64,000 nt of DNA, from the NCBI RefSeq assembly GCF_000189415.1, contig NC_015144.1, positions 501,501-565,500 on the forward strand, read 5' to 3'. Shown one piece after another: positions 23,226 through 33,544 of this stretch. Made by a program: the position numbers and the translations under genes. Below the pieces are notes generated by a model. The model had not been told where the DNA came from. It worked only from the letters and a program-made list of their open reading frames with translations, and did not search any database. This stretch comes from Weeksella virosa DSM 16922 (GTDB taxonomy: Bacteria; Bacteroidota; Bacteroidia; Flavobacteriales; Weeksellaceae). The stretch's first letter is position 1. Every line of letters starts with the position of its first letter.

Positions 23226-23342
23226 CCTTTCTTTTGCTGCTATCAACAAAATTAGATTCTCTGAAAAAAGGTGAATAGTCCAATGCATATTTAGTATTTG
23301 GGTAAAATGATGTAAAAAATATATATTACGTAGGATGATAAA

Positions 23343-23376
23343 AAAATTCCTCCGAGCTGTTGGCTCAGAGGAATTT
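23343..23376. terminator. Bidirectional terminator between the uvrC operon and the susD operon
   Basis: AATTCCTCCGAGC pairs with GGCTCAGAGGAATT around a short loop (one G-T pair), flanked by A-run and T-rich sides. Genes converge on it from both directions. Confidence 0.7.
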
Positions 23377-23407
23377 TGTGTTTATGGTTTTAATCTTTAT
23401 TAGAAGA

Positions 23408-24853
23408 TTAGTTACCCCATCCTGGATATTGTTGATCTTTAAGTATTGGATTAATATTTAAAGAGTAAGATGGAATTGGTAATACAAATAATTTATCACC
23501 TGTGGCAACATTACAATTTGCATTACAGTTTGTTGCTTTAACAATTGGTAAGTTATTACGTTTCAAGTCAAAGAAACGTTGTCCTTCACCAACAAATTCT
23601 TTACGTTTTTCTGTTAAAACAGCTGCTAATGCATCACCTGAATATGTAGTACCTCCACGCTCTGTTGCAAAAGTGTTAACCTCTGCTAAAGCTGTAGCGC
23701 CTTGCCCAGATTTTGCCATTGCTTCCCATTTGATGAATTTAGCTTCTGTTAAACGCAATGTTTTAACATTGGCAATGTTTTGATCTGTAACAATATAATT
23801 TTTATATTTCTTGATGAAATAACCTGGGTTTGGTGCATCATCATCGCGTGTATCTTTTAGAAATAAATTTCTACGTACATCATCAGCTCCGAATAAATCT
23901 ACCAAATTAGAACGTACCAAAATAGATTTTCTGGTATTTTCTTCAGTACCTACGTTATATGGATCATATAAAACTCCCATAGAATAGTTTACACCTGGGT
24001 TTGCCAAAACGCTATTCCCTATTTCGAAAACAGTTTCTGCTTGATTATCTACTTTATCCGAATAAAAATATTCTTGTAATTGATCAGCTGTTACTAATGA
24101 AAATACTCCTGGTGCTTTATTCAACGCATCATCTGCATACGAGATTGCATTTGCATAATCGCCTACTGTTAAGTAAGCTTTTGCTAACAATAATCGAGCA
24201 GCTGTTGATGATAAGAACGATTTGTTTACCGGCGTTTCATTTTCTGCTACGATTCCTGCTTTCAAATCACTAATGATTTGCGCATAGGTATCTGCAACAG
24301 AAGAACGTCCGTAAAATGCAAATGGATCGAACTCTCCTGTATATAGAGGGATACCGTATTCTTGGTTTTTACCTGAAGTTGGGTTTTCTCCCCATCCTTG
24401 TGCTAAATAAAAGAATGCCATTCCTCTAGCTGTATAAGCCTGAGCTTTCATAGCTTTAACATTGTCAGTTTCTTCTATTTTTGCATTGATAATAAAGTTT
24501 GCTTGGGCAACGATATCGTATAGCTCGTTGTAGATCGCATTCTGATCTCCTGCAGCAGCAGACCAATTCATGTTATGGAATGTTAAGAAATACCCACTAT
24601 TAGTACTACTTACGAATAAATCATCCGATGCTAAGTTCCCTAAATTAGGGATATAAGAATTAAAAGATTCTGCTACAGCAAACTGTGTATACATTCCTTT
24701 TAATACAAATTCCATCGTAGATTCATCCTTGATAGGATTTACCCCTGCTTCAATACCAACCCCATCTTCTGGAAATTGCACCAAGTCATCACTACTACAA
24801 GAAAATGCAGTAATAGCGAATGCTGTTAATAATATATATTTAATTTTTTTCAT
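23408..24853 (-). CDS. SusD/RagB-family outer-membrane lipoprotein (pair 1)
   Basis: A 481-residue surface lipoprotein of the SusD/RagB family. These bind a nutrient and form the lid over the partner SusC channel. The signal peptide ends in a lipobox (TAFSCSS, Cys19). The helix-rich TPR-like core includes YTARGMAFFYLAQGWGE near 137 and AARLLLAKAYLTVGDYANAI near 217. The C-terminal WEAMAKSGQ..RFFDLKRNN region and the final PGWGN are typical. It follows the susC-type gene by 13 bases. The substrate is unknown because no hydrolase is next to it. Confidence 0.93.
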   Translation of the reverse strand: MKKIKYILLTAFAITAFSCSSDDLVQFPEDGVGIEAGVNPIKDESTMEFVLKGMYTQFAVAESFNSYIPNLGNLASDDLFVSSTNSGYFLTFHNMNWSAAAGDQNAIYNELYDIVAQANFIINAKIEETDNVKAMKAQAYTARGMAFFYLAQGWGENPTSGKNQEYGIPLYTGEFDPFAFYGRSSVADTYAQIISDLKAGIVAENETPVNKSFLSSTAARLLLAKAYLTVGDYANAISYADDALNKAPGVFSLVTADQLQEYFYSDKVDNQAETVFEIGNSVLANPGVNYSMGVLYDPYNVGTEENTRKSILVRSNLVDLFGADDVRRNLFLKDTRDDDAPNPGYFIKKYKNYIVTDQNIANVKTLRLTEAKFIKWEAMAKSGQGATALAEVNTFATERGGTTYSGDALAAVLTEKRKEFVGEGQRFFDLKRNNLPIVKATNCNANCNVATGDKLFVLPIPSYSLNINPILKDQQYPGWGN

Positions 24854-24866
24854 TTTAAATTAATTT

Positions 24867-27800
24867 TTAGAAGTCAATAGATACACCAAATGAGATACTC
24901 TTCATGATTGGAGAAGTATAATCAAATACCCCTTTTCCTTGCCATCCGTATGAGAATGCATTTGAGTTTGATTCTGGATCAAAAGCTAATGTATCATCAA
25001 ATACCCATGTAACTAAATTATTACCTCTCAAGTATACGGTTAAATTATCTATACCAGAATCTTTTAATAAGTCTCCGAAACTATAAGATAATTTTACTTC
25101 TTTCAGACGAATGAAATCTCCGTCTTTTAAAAAGCGAGTAGACGCTAAACGAGAGTTTGGATTATTAGAACCCCATTTCTGGATTGGGTTACTTGCATTT
25201 CTATTTTCTGGTGTCCAAGAATCATATAATGCTGATGCCAATTGGTTGTAAGTTACAGATGCTCCATCTCCTAAAGAGTAAGATTGCCATGAGTCGAATA
25301 CTTGGTAATCGAATGCTCCTGAGAAGAATACGCTTAATGAGATATTTTTCCAAGACATGTCAGAACGTAAACCTGCCATCCATGTTGGGAATGGTGTTGT
25401 TCCTTGGAAATATTGTTTAGCTTTACCTCTATCATTGGTTGTTTCTGTTTCTGTTTCGTCTGTAAACCATAATGCATCACCATTTGTAGGGTCTACTCCT
25501 GCCCATCCGTAAGTGTAGTATTCACCAAACTTACGTCCTTCTTGGATTGCTTTCATACCTCCTGCTAGATATCTAGCATTTGGATCTTTCATTTTCCCAA
25601 TTTCAGATACATTGTAAGATGCGTTAGCGGTTAAGCTCCACAAGAATTCTCCTGAATTGAATGGTCTTACTGTTAAGATCCCTTCTACCCCTTTATTTTC
25701 AATTTCTCCAATATTAGTCCATGATGTATTTACAGGGCTCGGAGTTTCATATGGTATTTGTAATGGAAAAATTGCATCGCTAGTTAATTTACGGTAATAA
25801 TCAAATGATCCGCTTACTACATTGTTTGCAAATGCATAATCTAAACCAATATTTAATTGTTTAGTGGTCTCCCATTTAAGGTCTGGGTTACCTACGTTAC
25901 TTACAACAAATCCTTTTCCATTGTCTCCGTAATCAGAAGATACTCCCAAGAAAGATACTCCATTATAAGAAGTTCCCCATTGATCGGCATATGGAATGTT
26001 ACCAATTTCACCGTAGTTTGCACGTAATGTTAAGTTTGTAACTGCAGGTGAATTGATATCTTGTGTAAAGTTATATCCTGCTCCAGCTGACCAGAACCAA
26101 CCGCCTCTATTGTTTTCTCCTAGAGTAGAGTTATTATCGTTACGTACTTGTCCTGATATTGTTAATCGGTTACTTAGCACATAGTTCAGACGAGCAAAAT
26201 ATGAGTATTGCACCCATTTTTCAAATTCTCCTGTTGCAGCAATAATTGTCCCTGCATTATTCATCAATGGTTTTGCAATCAAAAAGTCTGTACCATGAGC
26301 AAAAGCACGTCTCATAGTGTGTTCTTGATATTCCATCCCTACATATGCTTGTAAGTCGTGAATATCATTAAATACTTTTTTGTAGCTTAGGGTGTTTGTC
26401 CAGTTCCAATCAAAGAATTTCGAATCGCTCGTATACAAACGTCCATTTACTGAAACTCCGTCTCCATAAAATGGGTTATACCATTGATTTTCATTTAACA
26501 TTTGGTATTGTCCACCCCACTGAGAGTCGAACGCTACACTAGGAGTTATTTGATAAGTTCCATTAACAGAAGCTAAAAAAGTATCTACATTACCTTTGAT
26601 ATGGCTATGTTTAAGTACTGCTGCTGGGTTGTGACCACCTGCACCACCTAAACTTAGGTTATAATCACCGTTAGCTAAATAAACTGGAGATGTTGGTCTT
26701 ACTGTCCATTGTGTTAACCATGGATTAGAAAAAGCACCTCCATCTAAATAGGTTTTATTTTCTACAGTAGTAAAGTTAACATTTGCACCTAATTTGAATT
26801 TATCAGAAGCTTTATGATCAACGGCTAATGAAGCACTTAAACGATCAAATGCCGAATAAATTGTTAACGGATTATTGTCATAATATGAGAAACCTGCTCT
26901 AAATGATGTATTATCACTACCTCCCGTTACGCTGAAATTATAAGTTTTTACTGTTGACACATCACGTTGTACAGCATCTCTCCAGCTTGTATTCGTCTTA
27001 CCATCCCATCGCACATAATTCTTAAAGAACTCATACCCTTCTTCGCGTGTTGAAGCTAGACCACTGTTGTATCTTAATAATCCACCCCATTGTACAAACT
27101 CTTCTGCATTCATGAACTTATTTTCATTATAAGCTTCGTCTTGTACAGAGAATTCAGATGAAATATTAAATCTTGTTTTTTGATTGAATTTACCTCTCTT
27201 TGTTGTAACAACTATAACCCCATTTGCTCCACGAGCTCCATATAAAGCTGTTGCTGAAGCATCTTTAAGAACTGTTACATTTTCGATTTGGTTAGGATCT
27301 ATAGAAGACAGTGGGTTGAATGATGTCATCAAACTACCATTATCTGCACCTTTACCTACTACAACACCATCGATTACATATAATGGGTTTGTAGTCCCTA
27401 TGAAAGACCCTGCACCACGTATTGCTATAATATTTGCAGAACCTGGTTGTCCTCCTCCTGTAGAGAAGTTAAGACCGGCAACACGACCGTTTAACACCTC
27501 ATCAACAGATGCTACTGGTGTGTTTTCAAAAACTTCACTCTTAACTGTTTCGTATGATCCAATTTTTTGTGCCGGATCTAACTGAATACCGCCAATGATA
27601 TTTACCGTCGATAATTCGATTTGTTTCGCCTCTGAAGTTCTTATCACTCCTAAATTGGCAGAAGTTACTTTTACTTCTTTCCCATTTACAATTAGTGTAT
27701 CCCCTACTTGAGCATCGATATCGAAGTTACCATCCATATCCGTATAGGTTGTTTTATCTGTACCTTTTACAGAAACCTCTACGTCAGATTCAGGGAAACC

Positions 27801-27896
27801 GTTACCATCGTTTACTGTACCTGTTACTTGTGCGTACAAAGCAGAACCGATTAGGAATGCTCCTACGAAGTAAAGGCTTTTTAAATTTCTCCTCAT
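24867..27896 (-). CDS. SusC/RagA-family TonB-dependent outer-membrane transporter (pair 1)
   Basis: A 1009-residue TonB-linked channel. Order: signal peptide (MRRNLKSLYFVGAFLIGSA, cut near ALYAQ), a CarboxypepD_reg-like domain (about 24-95), plug domain with the family segments NVTVLKDASATALYGARGANGVIVVTT near 207-233, and a 22-strand barrel ending in SFGVSIDF. It takes up substrates captured by the SusD lipoprotein encoded 13 bases downstream. The length is in the usual range of 950-1100. No TonB-interacting STN domain or sigma/anti-sigma genes are present, so regulation by a surface-signalling sigma factor is not indicated. Confidence 0.95.
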   Translation of the reverse strand: MRRNLKSLYFVGAFLIGSALYAQVTGTVNDGNGFPESDVEVSVKGTDKTTYTDMDGNFDIDAQVGDTLIVNGKEVKVTSANLGVIRTSEAKQIELSTVNIIGGIQLDPAQKIGSYETVKSEVFENTPVASVDEVLNGRVAGLNFSTGGGQPGSANIIAIRGAGSFIGTTNPLYVIDGVVVGKGADNGSLMTSFNPLSSIDPNQIENVTVLKDASATALYGARGANGVIVVTTKRGKFNQKTRFNISSEFSVQDEAYNENKFMNAEEFVQWGGLLRYNSGLASTREEGYEFFKNYVRWDGKTNTSWRDAVQRDVSTVKTYNFSVTGGSDNTSFRAGFSYYDNNPLTIYSAFDRLSASLAVDHKASDKFKLGANVNFTTVENKTYLDGGAFSNPWLTQWTVRPTSPVYLANGDYNLSLGGAGGHNPAAVLKHSHIKGNVDTFLASVNGTYQITPSVAFDSQWGGQYQMLNENQWYNPFYGDGVSVNGRLYTSDSKFFDWNWTNTLSYKKVFNDIHDLQAYVGMEYQEHTMRRAFAHGTDFLIAKPLMNNAGTIIAATGEFEKWVQYSYFARLNYVLSNRLTISGQVRNDNNSTLGENNRGGWFWSAGAGYNFTQDINSPAVTNLTLRANYGEIGNIPYADQWGTSYNGVSFLGVSSDYGDNGKGFVVSNVGNPDLKWETTKQLNIGLDYAFANNVVSGSFDYYRKLTSDAIFPLQIPYETPSPVNTSWTNIGEIENKGVEGILTVRPFNSGEFLWSLTANASYNVSEIGKMKDPNARYLAGGMKAIQEGRKFGEYYTYGWAGVDPTNGDALWFTDETETETTNDRGKAKQYFQGTTPFPTWMAGLRSDMSWKNISLSVFFSGAFDYQVFDSWQSYSLGDGASVTYNQLASALYDSWTPENRNASNPIQKWGSNNPNSRLASTRFLKDGDFIRLKEVKLSYSFGDLLKDSGIDNLTVYLRGNNLVTWVFDDTLAFDPESNSNAFSYGWQGKGVFDYTSPIMKSISFGVSIDF

Positions 27897-27923
27897 TTAG
27901 TTTTTTTTAAAAAAATTCGCTGT

Positions 27924-27950
27924 CAAATATAACTTAAATTTAACTTACAA
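27924..27950 (-). promoter_or_regulatory. Promoter of the pair-1 susC (TTG-16-TATATTTG)
   Basis: On the minus strand a TTG at 27950-27948 is followed after 16 bases by TATATTTG at 27931-27924, 27 bases upstream of the ATG. It matches the Bacteroidetes TTG / TAnnTTTG promoter with a slightly short spacer, and it abuts the terminator of the preceding susD gene. Confidence 0.5.
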
Positions 27951-27988
27951 AAAAAAAAGGTATGTTAAAATGAATATTTAACACACCT
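27950..27988 (-). terminator. Terminator after the pair-2 susD gene
   Basis: On the minus strand AAGGTGTGTTAAA pairs with TTTAACATACCTT (one wobble) around a 7-base loop and is followed by about ten T. It separates the two susCD pairs into distinct transcription units. Confidence 0.75.
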
Positions 27989-28025
27989 TTTTTATGAATC
28001 CTTTTAAAAAAACTTAAAAATTTTA

Positions 28026-29462
28026 TTAATACTTATCCCAGAAGAGTTTTGTTGTTAACTCATCACCTCCTATTGCAGCCGAAGCAGCTGAATTGTTTGC
28101 ACCATTAAGATTTCTCTCTGCTGTAGGATATGTAAATCTTGTTGGCAAAGGTAATCCTGATGTTGCTGCAATATTCATTGTAGGAGCATCTAAACGTCGA
28201 ACAACTGTCCATGCATCGAATCCTTTATTATACATAGCTAAATAAAATTGTTTACCAATTTTTTCTTTCCATGTTCCCGAGGCCGATGAGTAGGCTACCG
28301 ATGGTTGAGCTAAATAAGCTGCTGCATCTGCAGAGTCAACTCCCCAGAATTCCATAGATGCTAAAATTGCATCATTATAATGCGACTCTATAGATCCTCC
28401 GACTGCATAGCCTCTTGCGGCACTTTCGGCAAGCAGGAACTTAACTTCAGCATAATCTAATAGATTTCCTGGATAATCTTTACGATGCAAAAGATCTGAA
28501 ATTTGTGTATGAGTTGCATAAGGGGTTGCTAAACCATAAACACCTCCTACAAAAACTCCAGAACCTAGATTTTCTCTAAAATATTTAGGTCTCCTAGGGT
28601 CATTTAATTCATTCATTTGGTCAACAATAGTGTTTGCTGCTACAAAATCTGCTCGTCCAGAGTTTACTAAATCGTCCCACAGTGGGTTTACGTATGGTTC
28701 TGATCCTGGGTAAACCAATGTGAAATTATCATCATTTGATGTCATTATACCGAAAGCTACAGCTTCTTGAACAGTACTTTGTGCCAATGCGTTATCTGCA
28801 TCTGAAATCTGCACTGCTGCTTTGAGTAATAATGATGCTCCAAATTTCTTCCATTTACTCATGTTTCCTTTGTAGACAATATCATTTGATCCAAATCCAC
28901 TGCCAGAAACTTCTATGCCCGAAACACTAGCTTTTAATCTATTAATCAGATCTGTGTAGATTGTTTTTGCATCATCATATTTTGGCGTAATGTTATCACC
29001 TCCCTGTAAAGCTTCTGTATAAGGAACATCTCCGAAGGTATCTACCAATACCATCCAGGCCTGAACCTGAAGTATGTCTACTATTGCCAATTGATTTGCT
29101 TTTTCAGAGGCACTTAAAGAAGCGTTTTCTTCTATAAGCTTTTTGGCAGATTTCAAGTCGAATAGTACATCTGTGTTTAATCTTGTCCATAATCGCCCAT
29201 TGATATTACGCGTTTCTAAGTCATAGTTCGATTCTTCTACATATTGCGTTTCGTTCCATTGTTGCGACCATAGCCTGAATACGTTCAGATTCACATTGGT
29301 ATTGAGCATTTGGTAAAAATAACTTGTAACGGCGTTGGTAACAAAGTATTCTGCTGGGACGTCACTTGGGTTGATCGGATCCACGTTCAAGCTATCGTAG
29401 TAATCATCTGAACATGATTGTATTGCTAAGACTGTAGCTAAGGCTAATATTATTTTTTTCAT
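28026..29462 (-). CDS. SusD/RagB-family nutrient-binding outer-membrane lipoprotein (pair 2)
   Basis: A 478-residue lipoprotein with signal peptide and lipobox (AIQSCSD, Cys17). It resembles the second SusD-like subfamily: VDPINPSDVPAEYF after the lipid anchor, QAWMVLVDTFGDVPYTEAL near 133-151, KWKKFGASLLLKAAVQISD near 204 and LAMYNKGFDAWTVVRRL near 405. It is clearly different from pair 1, so the two loci are unlikely to be a recent duplication. It lies 11 bases downstream of the pair-2 susC. It should bind nutrient at the cell surface and hand it to that channel. Confidence 0.93.
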   Translation of the reverse strand: MKKIILALATVLAIQSCSDDYYDSLNVDPINPSDVPAEYFVTNAVTSYFYQMLNTNVNLNVFRLWSQQWNETQYVEESNYDLETRNINGRLWTRLNTDVLFDLKSAKKLIEENASLSASEKANQLAIVDILQVQAWMVLVDTFGDVPYTEALQGGDNITPKYDDAKTIYTDLINRLKASVSGIEVSGSGFGSNDIVYKGNMSKWKKFGASLLLKAAVQISDADNALAQSTVQEAVAFGIMTSNDDNFTLVYPGSEPYVNPLWDDLVNSGRADFVAANTIVDQMNELNDPRRPKYFRENLGSGVFVGGVYGLATPYATHTQISDLLHRKDYPGNLLDYAEVKFLLAESAARGYAVGGSIESHYNDAILASMEFWGVDSADAAAYLAQPSVAYSSASGTWKEKIGKQFYLAMYNKGFDAWTVVRRLDAPTMNIAATSGLPLPTRFTYPTAERNLNGANNSAASAAIGGDELTTKLFWDKY

Positions 29463-29473
29463 TTTACTAACTT

Positions 29474-32400
29474 TTAAAATTGTACTTTAAGATTTAGACC
29501 AATCTCTCTATAGGTTGGGTGTGCTCCTGATTGATATCCTTGAATATTACCTGCACTTAATCCGGCTTCTGGATCAGCGTATGGTACATTTTTATGGATA
29601 ATCCATAAGTTACGTCCTACTGCCGATAAAGAAAGCTTTTGAATAAATGTATTTCTCAAGAATTTTTCTGGTAAATCATACGATAGTGTAACGTTTCTCA
29701 GTTTTACGAAAGATGCATCGTAAATATGTTCTTCTCTTACACCTCCAAGATATCCCCAAGGGTTATTATTACCATCAGAAGCATCCACTCGAATGGTATT
29801 TGGATTACCATTCTGATCAACACCTGGCAAGATTATTCCACCACCATTTTGTAACGAGTTACGAATTGGGTTGCCTAAATCGTTTAATCCTGTTGTGAAA
29901 TTGTTGTACAACCCTGTTGCATATCCGTAGAACGTGTCTAAAGAGAAGACATCGCCACCTTTTTGGACATCAATCAGGAATCCTAAACTAAGGTTTTTAT
30001 ATGTAAATGTGTTTTTCACACCTCCTGTCCAATCCGGATTCATATTACCCAATATAGTAGTTGATGGCGAAAGGACATAGTATCCATTTGCATCTACTAT
30101 TCTATTTCCTGCATCGTCGTAGGTATATCCTCTACCTCTAATAATACCTACTGCCTCACCTATTTGAGCTCCAATGGTTACACCTCCCTGAACAGCTGCT
30201 AATTGATAGTACTCAATATCACCATTGAATCTTAACATTTCGTTCTGGTTTTTTGCAAAGTTCACAGTCATTTTCCAGCTAAAGTCTGCCGTTCTGATTG
30301 GCTCTAAACCTAAACGTACCTCAATACCTTCGTTTTTAATGTCACCCATATTTGTCCATTGACGAGATGCACCTGTTGAGGTCGACACATCTACATCGGT
30401 AATCAAATCATAAGTTTTTCTATTATAGTACGAAACATCGAAATTAACTCGGTTTCTGAAGAAGCCCATCTCTAGACCAACTTCATACTCCTCCATTATT
30501 TCTGGTTTCAGGTTGGCATATCTATTAGCCGATGGATTGGAAGCTGATCCTACAGATCCGAAACTTGCATTCACATCATAGGTATTCCATAATCTATATG
30601 GTGCTGTATCGTTACCAACTTGAGCATAATTCAATCGGATTTTTCCAAAATTAACAGCAGATGATTTCATTAATTCTGAGAATACAAAACTCAAAGATCC
30701 TGAAGGATACCAATATCTATTGCCATTGGTCGATTGAGACCATAATGATGATGATCTATCTGTACGGATTGATCCTTCTAGGAATAACATATTACGATAA
30801 CCCAAACTAGCTCTCAAATATTCACCGTCTACCATTTTCTTATATCTTGATTGTGAAACATCTGCAACAGTTAAAGGGTTTACAGAGTTCAAAAGCGAAT
30901 ATAATCTAGGTATTTTCAATCCTCCATTGGTTTGTGCGGCAAAAGCCTCATAATTTTGCACTCTCAGATTCCATCCTAAATCCGCATTTAAGTTCAAATC
31001 ATCCGTAAGATTTTTATTCACATTAAAGATTACATCATAGTTACCTTCCGATACATCAAAATTCCGTATAGTATACGACCCTGGTGAACCGGCTGATCCT
31101 ATTGCCAATCTTTCTTCTCTTTTTTCTGTGTAGTTATCAAAGCCATATCGCCCTAAAACGCTTAACCAATCGGTTAATTCATAATTTACGGTAACACCAC
31201 CATTATAACGCTTACGATCATCATTTTGGAAGTTTTCATACCGTGTAAAGAAATAGTTGTCAGAGTATAAAGGCTTCAAATAACTACTATTTGCAGGATC
31301 AATCGATGCTAAGTTCCAAGTAGCATTTTCTTTCTTCAACCAATATGCCTTTCTAAGGTCCTCTAAATCCACATTCACTTGCCACCATTGACGAAACTGT
31401 TGCATTGGATTCCACCCATCATAACCAGTACCAACTCTACCTTTAGCAGAATTGTCTACAAAGTTCATTTTTGCGCTAACCGTTAATCTGTCTGTGATGT
31501 TGTACGACCCAGTAAAATCTATTGAGTTTCTTAGCAATTTACTGTTTACTAAACCAAATTCGTCTTGAAAATTAGTAAAACCTACCCGAAAATTTCCTTC
31601 GTCGTTAGAACCAAAAAAGGATGCAGAATTTTGGAAGGTTGTGATGCTTTTCCAAATTGCATTAGGATCATTTTTTGCAGCTACCCAAGGCGTTTTTTGC
31701 CCAAAAGTTGGCATTCCTTCCCAGAAAGCTGTCCATTGATAAACCATCAAATTTGGATCGAAAGCTGCTCCGTATGATGCATCATCACCATACATAACAT
31801 ATAAATCACTAGGATTAGAACCTGCTGGCCCAGCATTGAAGTATGGATTAACAGGGCTACTCCCGTTATTCGTGTACCCTGCTCCGTATTGTTTCTGATA
31901 TTCAGGTAATGTTGATTTGTCGACTGTACCAACGGTAATAGACGAATTGAATTCTGCTCCTATTCCTCTTTTTTTAGTCCCTTTTTTTGTGGTAATCATC
32001 ACCACACCATTCATCCCTCGAGAACCATATAACGCAGCAGCAGCAGCCCCTTTCAGGACATTGATAGTTTCAATATCATTCGGATTGATGTCTGCGGCAG
32101 CATTCGCATAATCGAATCCTCCTCGACCAGTTTGCTGACCTGCGGTATTCAAGGTAGAGTTATTTATTGGCACACCGTCTACAACAATTAATGCTTGGTT
32201 ATCACCAATCAAAGTACTCGTACCACGAATTACCATATTGGTAGATCCTCCTCTAGATCCAGATCCTTTGATATCCAAACCAGCAATTTCACCTGACAAG
32301 GCATCTGCAAAGTTGGATACCGGCGACTGATTTACAACATCCCCACTAATCTCTTGCGTTGCGTAACCAAGCGATCTTTTCTCTCGTGTAATCCCAAGAG

Positions 32401-32732
32401 CTGTTACCACAGCCCCCTCCAGCTCGATAGCTTCTGTTTGTACTGGTTTCAAAGAAACTGCATACGAAGTACTATTACCTACAACAAAGGTTTGCATAGG
32501 TAAACCAAAAGATTCTACCGTAATCGTTTCTCCTTCGTTTGCTTCTATACTAAATTTACCATGCTCATCAGTATACACCTCTGCTCCTGCAGAAGACTTA
32601 ACTATGGCATCGACTACAGGAAAACCGTCTTTGTCAGTTACAGTTCCTGTTACTGTTTTCACTTGTGCAAACAATGCAGAGCTCACTATAAAAGACCCCC
32701 ACAAAGAACAAGCTTCTTAAATTTCTCCTCAT
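29474..32732 (-). CDS. SusC/RagA-family TonB-dependent transporter (pair 2), frameshift in the signal peptide
   Basis: The main frame encodes 1076 residues with CarboxypepD_reg-like domain, plug (NDIETINVLKGAAAAALYGSRG near 205) and a barrel ending EIGLNLKVQF. This frame lacks a proper start: it opens with a TTG at 32704 in the middle of a signal peptide. An ATG at 32732 in another frame encodes MRRNLRSLFFVG, almost the same as the start of the pair-1 SusC (MRRNLKSLYFVG). The two frames join if one base is removed from the five-C run (plus strand) at 32696-32700, giving an intact signal peptide SFIVSSALFAQ. As read, translation from the ATG stops after about 32 codons. The gene is either mutated or phase-off, or the sequence has an indel error. 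Confidence 0.85.
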
Positions 32733-32753
32733 CTGTTAATTATTTTTAAAAAC

Positions 32754-32768
32754 TTAACTCTAAGTTAA
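32754..32768. repeat. Small inverted repeat at the pair-2 susC promoter
   Basis: TTAACT-cta-AGTTAA, 6-bp arms with a 3-base centre, directly touching the minus-strand -7 element and covering the expected transcription start. It could be an operator or start-site hairpin. Confidence 0.4.
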
Positions 32769-32776
32769 CAAATTTA
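32769..32776 (-). promoter_or_regulatory. -7 promoter element of the pair-2 susC (TAAATTTG)
   Basis: TAAATTTG on the minus strand matches TAnnTTTG, 36 bases upstream of the ATG at 32732. This also favours 32732 over the TTG at 32704 as the real start. Confidence 0.5.
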
Positions 32777-32805
32777 TTATATATACAAGAAATATATTCC
32801 AAATA

Positions 32806-32813
32806 TTTTTGTT
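32806..32813 (+). promoter_or_regulatory. -7 promoter element of rnhB (TATTTTTG)
   Basis: TATTTTTG matches TAnnTTTG and lies 22 bases upstream of the rnhB ATG, back to back with the susC promoter 29 bases away. Confidence 0.45.
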
Positions 32814-32835
32814 AAAACTTTAAAAATTTAACTGA

Positions 32836-33435
32836 ATGCTTAGAAAGTTAACAAATATGGATTATGAATGTGGATGTGATGAAGCCGGAAGAGGATGTCT
32901 TGCTGGCCCTGTGATTGCAGCAGCTGTAGTTTTCCCGAATGAGTTTTTCGATTCAACTATAATCGATTCTAAACTCCTAACTAAAATAAAACGCAACAAT
33001 CTAAGAGAGCTTATAAACACAAATGTTCTGACGGCAGAAATTGGGTTTGTCGACAACCAAGAAATCGATGAACTTAATATTCTTAACGCAAGTTTCGAAG
33101 CTATGCATCGGGCTATTAACAAACTGAGTATAGAGCCTGATTTTATTATTGTGGATGGAAACCGATTCAAACCCTACAAAAACATTCCGCACGAATGCAT
33201 CGTAAAAGGTGATGCCAAATATATTTCGATTGCAGCCGCTTCTATTTTAGCCAAAACCTATCGCGATGAATATATGCAGAAAATACACAAAGAATACCCC
33301 ATGTATCATTGGGATAAAAACAAGGGGTATCCTACCAAACAACATCGAGAAGCTATCCGAGAGTTTGGGGTTTCACCTTATCATAGAACGTCTTTTCGGT
33401 TGTTCGACGAGCAACTTTCACTTGATCTTGAATAA
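32836..33435 (+). CDS. rnhB: Ribonuclease HII
   Basis: RNase HII cleaves RNA in RNA-DNA hybrids and single ribonucleotides misincorporated in DNA. The 199 residues show the acidic catalytic motif CGCDEAGRGCLAGPV near 12-26 (Asp and Glu of DEAGRG), DSKLL near 43, the third Asp in IIVDGNRF near 105 and the final Asp in TYRDEYM near 140. Length is normal. The ATG at 32836 is used; a second in-frame ATG at 32857 is possible. A hairpin terminator follows directly. Confidence 0.95.
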   Translation: MLRKLTNMDYECGCDEAGRGCLAGPVIAAAVVFPNEFFDSTIIDSKLLTKIKRNNLRELINTNVLTAEIGFVDNQEIDELNILNASFEAMHRAINKLSIEPDFIIVDGNRFKPYKNIPHECIVKGDAKYISIAAASILAKTYRDEYMQKIHKEYPMYHWDKNKGYPTKQHREAIREFGVSPYHRTSFRLFDEQLSLDLE

Positions 33436-33437
33436 TA

Positions 33438-33466
33438 AAAAAAGCTCTGAACATGCAGAGCTTTTT
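33438..33466 (+). terminator. Terminator after rnhB
   Basis: AAAAGCTCTG and CAGAGCTTTT form a 10-bp stem around a 6-base loop, followed by T, 3 bases after the stop codon. Confidence 0.85.
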
Positions 33467-33544
33467 ATCCTAACATTCCGATACAATATATTCGGCATAA
33501 ATTATTTTCTAAATTACATAGATAAAACAGAAATCATTTAAACC

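Follow-up and report, generated by a model that had tools for sequence, protein, structure and literature searches.

A frame break at a short G run in the signal peptide of a SusC/RagA-type receptor gene in the published genome of Weeksella virosa DSM 16922

The susC1 locus

The chromosome of W. virosa DSM 16922 is a single molecule of 2,272,954 bases. The stretch analysed here, referred to as the window, covers 64,000 nucleotides of it (NC_015144.1, positions 501,501 to 565,500), and positions within it are counted from its first letter. Two neighbouring pairs of susC- and susD-like genes are located on the minus strand of the window, and one of them, susC1/susD1, lies next to the divergent rnhB gene (Table 1).

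Table 1. Genes and sequence features at the susC1 locus (positions within the window)
Feature	Position	Strand	Basis or remark
susC1, SusC/RagA-type TonB-dependent receptor	29474..32704	-	TIGR04056, Plug, nearest solved BT_2264 (5fq6); 1076 codons from TTG, without complete in-frame signal peptide
susD1, SusD-like partner, frame intact	28026..29462	-	SusD-like_2, PF12771
susC2, neighbouring SusC, with a susC1-type signal peptide that is intact	24867..27896	-	TIGR04056
susD2, partner of susC2	23408..24853	-	
rnhB (ribonuclease HII), divergent neighbour marking the locus in other genera	32836..33435	+	
Run of five G at which the frame changes (C on the plus strand)	32696..32700	-	Sequence; W. massiliensis orthologue with four G
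Frame led by the ATG and closed by TGA after 32 codons; its first 12 residues are of SusC signal-peptide type	32634..32732	-	

The susC1 product matches the TIGR04056 family with 533 bits (cut-off 368), the TIGR04057 signature with 58 (cut-off 46) and the Plug domain PF07715 with 73 bits. After a gap of 11 bases it is followed by susD1, which encodes a putative SusD-like lipoprotein (387 bits to PF12771). In the TIGR04056 and Plug matches and in its adjoining SusD-like partner, susC1 resembles the known SusC/RagA receptors with SusD-type lids, but this allele lacks a usable in-frame signal peptide. The closest solved sequence is BT_2264 (E 2e-104), and oligopeptide ligands are referred to for the Bt2261-64 structures in a 2021 paper (PMC7782687). 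A role of susC1 in oligopeptide uptake is therefore plausible and, judged from this relationship, a fair guess, which is in keeping with the description of W. virosa as non-saccharolytic (PMC12390210). Besides susC1, other SusC genes are present in the W. virosa genome. For susC2 and susD2, the ORF comparison with the syntenic stretch of W. massiliensis gave no relative of at least 50% identity. That stretch carries a SusC whose N-terminus is nearly identical to that of susC2.

The reading frame is lost within the signal peptide

Translation from the susC1 ATG (32732-32730, minus strand) yields the N-terminal half of a SusC signal peptide, with 10 of the first 12 residues identical to those of susC2 (ATG 27896), then leaves the SusC frame at the run of five G and closes at the TGA at 32636-32634. 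The SusC frame, on the other hand, is limited upstream by a TAA at 32719 and stays open from there down to 29474. Its earliest start codon is the TTG at 32704, and its earliest ATG (32497) lies far into the protein. The frame that follows the run is not open by chance, since it encodes SusC. The first-pass annotation had described precisely this arrangement, a signal peptide like that of the neighbouring SusC that goes out of frame at the run, with the rest of the protein intact in another frame; our data confirm both parts, and the frame break is a real feature of the published sequence. Judged against 79 relatives, susC1 has no in-frame N-terminal export signal, as the frame changes within it. 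Runs of five G or C are uncommon but not rare in the window (n = 6), and another one is found in frame within susC1 itself (32413-32417). Directly upstream of the susC1 start, at 32751-32766, there is a palindrome (AACTTA-GAGT-TAAGTT) that is partly retained in W. massiliensis.

Rearrangements as a source of the break were also considered and rejected. The shared 5′ ends of susC1 and susC2 are 72% alike over 54 bases only, which does not fit a shufflon or inverting segment between the two genes, and none of the three inverted-repeat pairs in 23300-33500 joins the two susC starts. Along susC1, identity to W. massiliensis declines gradually and shows no abrupt change at the run, which speaks against a recombination junction at this position.

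Related loci carry the signal peptide in frame

The start of susC1 adjoins rnhB also in W. massiliensis, Empedobacter, Chishuiella and Moheibacter. The W. massiliensis orthologue, with a protein 77% identical to that of W. virosa, carries four G at the homologous place and its frame is whole. The alignment of the two genes is colinear on either side of the run and differs by one base at the run itself. Other members of the susC1 locus have G or C runs of at most three within their first 75 bases. To survey the locus more widely, a 17-base pattern from the shared susC start was searched in 148 genomes of the family. It was found at 18 sites in 16 of these genomes, and all 18 proved to be SusC starts by translation; 15 adjoin rnhB and thus represent susC1, and three are susC2. 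In all 15 rnhB-linked loci found in this way, the signal peptide is in frame. At one of them the susC1 relative is only 351 codons long and the neighbouring rnhB is split into two matching pieces, both of which are probably assembly errors. Inspection by eye of 80 SusC relatives from named genomes revealed an ATG-led basic signal peptide in 79, the remaining one being cut by a contig end. Viral contigs contained no match to a 22-base pattern taken from the sequence preceding the susC1 run.

The first 16 bases, ATGAGGAGAAATTTAA, are identical between susC1 (32717-32732) and susC2 (27881-27896). The same 16 bases occur unchanged, synonymous positions included, in three genomes of the genus Weeksella and 13 genomes of one other genus. 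There may be constraint here on more than the protein. Elsewhere in the pair (28029-32698), synonymous sites are saturated in comparison with W. massiliensis (pS 0.72 for susC1 and 0.75 for susD1), whereas 45 further gene pairs within the window have a median pS of 0.42 and reach 0.63 at most. This suggests that either W. virosa or W. massiliensis has exchanged its susC1/susD1 pair with a more distantly related allele. The susC1 barrel is highly divergent between species.

The remainder of susC1 shows no decay

No stop was found in the 1076-codon susC1 frame. About 5.2% of random substitutions in susC1 would give a stop, and some 56 neutral changes would have produced one with a 95% chance. 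Counting lineage-specific changes with two agreeing outgroups gave 53 for W. virosa and 51 for W. massiliensis (chi-square 0.04), and the same relative-rate test with three outgroups gave 28 and 26. Neither further lesions nor faster change, as seen in pseudogenes with decay, were thus observed: the remainder of susC1 is intact and has been under selection until recently. Together with the in-frame relatives, the absence of decay in the mature protein indicates that the break is either recent or an error. Of the readings offered by the first-pass annotation, which had argued that a disrupted gene would usually show more decay, this bears out a recent lesion without decay.

An early pseudogene, decaying in a host-associated species without further need of the transporter, would be in line with the 56 pseudogenes reported for the W. 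virosa genome (PMC3072086) and with the further SusC genes of this genome, next to which susC1 may be dispensable. However, a second lesion and an excess of lineage-specific change are both missing in susC1, and the frame of its partner susD1 is intact, making this explanation extremely improbable.

Sequencing error or mutation

Sequence data of the 454 type are prone to run-length errors. A consensus error would mean that the cells carry an intact susC1 and that the finished sequence is one base too long in a short G run. The assembly backbone of the W. virosa genome consists of 454 data, and susC1 is otherwise whole, as expected for such an error. On the other hand, the genome report gives 2,107x Illumina coverage in addition to 64x 454 coverage, with polishing, and puts the error rate below 1 in 100,000 (PMC3072086).

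As a control, frame breaks were sought in two blocks of W. virosa compared with W. massiliensis, one of 264 kb (201 orthologous ORFs) and one of 200 kb (149). Among these 350 ORFs, with 384,434 coding bases, two broken genes were found: susC1 and a metallo-beta-lactamase-fold/rhodanese gene outside the window, at about 468,930 (468,927-468,932). The latter has six C where W. massiliensis, in which the gene is whole, reads CCTCC. The 200 kb block with its 149 ORFs yielded no frame break. All two-frame flags of the first block were aligned, and all except the rhodanese gene turned out to lie upstream of start codons. In the second block, three two-frame and two N-terminal cases from the comparison of W. 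massiliensis with W. virosa were aligned, again all upstream of starts. The two-frame cases 100059 and 92718, the remaining N- and C-terminal flags and everything flagged in the reverse direction were judged by position, without alignment. In the reverse direction, no clear break in W. massiliensis was apparent from the flags among the 200 and 149 ORFs; one of these flags is an N-terminal difference of 68 residues. A third candidate break, at a run of six G, was discarded as two overlapping genes.

Both breaks fall on G/C runs of five to six bases. In the orthologous coding DNA there are 62 G/C runs of at least five bases and 3,557 A/T runs, the latter being 57 times commoner, so that two of 62 G/C runs are broken and none of 3,557 A/T runs. 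If all runs broke alike, the chance of both breaks falling on G/C would be about 3 in 10,000, an arithmetic value from the run counts with n = 2. We regard this bias as a mild surprise. Since base-neutral run-length errors should have struck mostly A/T runs, the distribution leans towards real slippage. The density of two breaks in 384,434 coding bases is nevertheless below the published error ceiling and compatible with it, and for this reason and because of the small number of breaks, error keeps a minority share of the weight, about a fifth. Sequencing error had been listed as an option by the first-pass annotation; sequencing depth, polishing and the G/C bias of the breaks make it less likely, and we regard it as unlikely without setting it aside.

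Bypass of the frame break

SusC1 might still be made if translation started at the TTG at 32704 or if ribosomes slipped by +1 on GGG-G. This TTG belongs to the open frame; the sequence context upstream of it outscores that of 82 among 119 internal start-like codons, and six of 38 presumed real starts score below it. In the ATG frame, a GGG codon is followed by a G, as read from the sequence, so that a +1 slip would re-pair. However, a product initiated at TTG would be devoid of the basic N-terminal part present in the 79 readable relatives, and its context score of -2.4 compares with a median of 2.1 for the presumed real starts and with 4.0 for the ATG. A signal peptide working from this TTG had been named in advance as an observation that would speak against a disrupted gene; with its poor context and missing basic end, the TTG is a weak substitute. 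The predicted RNA fold around the run is not stronger than that of shuffled sequences (z -0.65). W. massiliensis does not have such an arrangement, so there is no conserved recoding signal, and the combination of a conserved slippery site and a stimulator that defines programmed ribosomal frameshifting was not found. Production of SusC1 by either route is accordingly very unlikely.

The run does not resemble a phase-variable switch

In a contingency locus, the length of the run would change often and switch SusC on and off, the published sequence representing the off state. A surface transporter with a break near its 5′ end and an intact remainder would suit such a system. There are also precedents: inlA is inactivated by an A7/A6 change in a 5′ run (PMC2831843), and a meningococcal poly-C run differs between strains as C5 and C6 (PMC5084427). 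However, the run at susC1 has five bases, whereas the hypermutable runs of contingency loci usually have at least eight G or C, and no G8 or C8 is present in the whole W. virosa genome. In meningococci, runs of at least eight are predominantly those that vary in most genomes (PMC5084427). The run is also not kept across relatives, being shorter and in frame in W. massiliensis and no longer than three at the other loci. Genome-wide, the 42 overlapping matches to six G correspond to 38 separate runs. Of G/C runs of at least six, 37 were examined by frame (a 38th was left out as a repeat of another), and only one of them breaks a gene. Both mutS and mutL are intact and of full length, which gives no indication of a mutator, and such a background was rejected as an explanation. 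A run of six G within mutL (1512324-1512329) is in frame. The first-pass annotation's option of a phase-off state thus finds little in its favour; we consider it improbable, and the sequence comparisons do not support the run as an evolved switch.

Short runs can be polymorphic, as the meningococcal C5/C6 run and inlA illustrate, so a rare reversion of susC1 is possible. For inlA, the change from A6 to A7 was measured at a rate near 5.5 in 10 million (PMC2831843). In W. virosa, which is devoid of long G/C runs, those of five to six bases could conceivably act as slow on/off sites, including the one in the susC1 signal peptide, given that two of the 62 such runs are off and none of the A/T runs. 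We put this forward as a speculation with a slim chance of being correct.

Discussion

The published sequence of susC1 contains a frame break within the signal peptide, followed by an intact and recently selected remainder, and related loci are in frame. We consider it probable that the break reflects a real, recent and rarely reversible +1 slippage in the G run, leaving the type-strain stock used for sequencing with a null or almost null allele that is possibly restricted to it. That the cells carry the extra base, that it arose by slippage and that it abolishes function is what we infer from these observations. A point against real slippage is that short runs slip rarely and that the mismatch-repair genes are intact.

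According to this explanation, +1 slippage in the short G run would add one base where susC1 encodes its signal peptide. Translation initiated at the ATG would then go out of frame within the hydrophobic core of this peptide and terminate after 32 codons. The SusC barrel would not be exported, and the SusD partner would be left without its channel. The short run may revert on rare occasions, and nothing marks it as an evolved switch. Most likely, the lesion of susC1 is an ordinary loss-of-function mutation rather than a genetic switch.

Several known systems share some of these properties. In Listeria inlA, a short run close to the start changes in length by one base, which leads to a very short product with the rest of the gene intact, as in susC1. 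There, the run is a poly(A) of six to seven bases that is polymorphic between strains and whose reversion has been measured, whereas susC1 carries G5 in one genome (PMC2831843). G/C runs were generally under-represented in the survey of the same paper. The phase-variable genes of Neisseria and Campylobacter likewise have a G/C run in a surface-protein gene, but the susC1 run is limited to five bases in a genome free of runs of at least eight, and it is known here from one W. virosa genome, whereas a 2025 review gives six assembly entries for the species (PMC12390210). The reversibly silenced genes of Staphylococcus aureus (SARM) resemble susC1 in having a homopolymer frameshift in an otherwise intact gene and revert at low frequency. 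Most of them are deletions in poly(A) tracts whose reversion has been tested, in contrast to a G run known from sequence alone (PMC6819657). Literature searches on the W. virosa genome and proteome, on homopolymer phase variation of SusC and on invertible SusC returned nothing on susC1 among the matches listed.

In the reference genome of this clinical species, susC1 appears intact to a gene finder, with a TTG start and 1076 codons, but export of its product most likely fails in the stock that was sequenced. Experiments on uptake or on the cell surface that use the type strain may therefore overlook SusC1. Additionally, should the preference of the two breaks for G/C runs extend to the whole genome, short G/C runs would be the fragile sites of this AT-rich genome.
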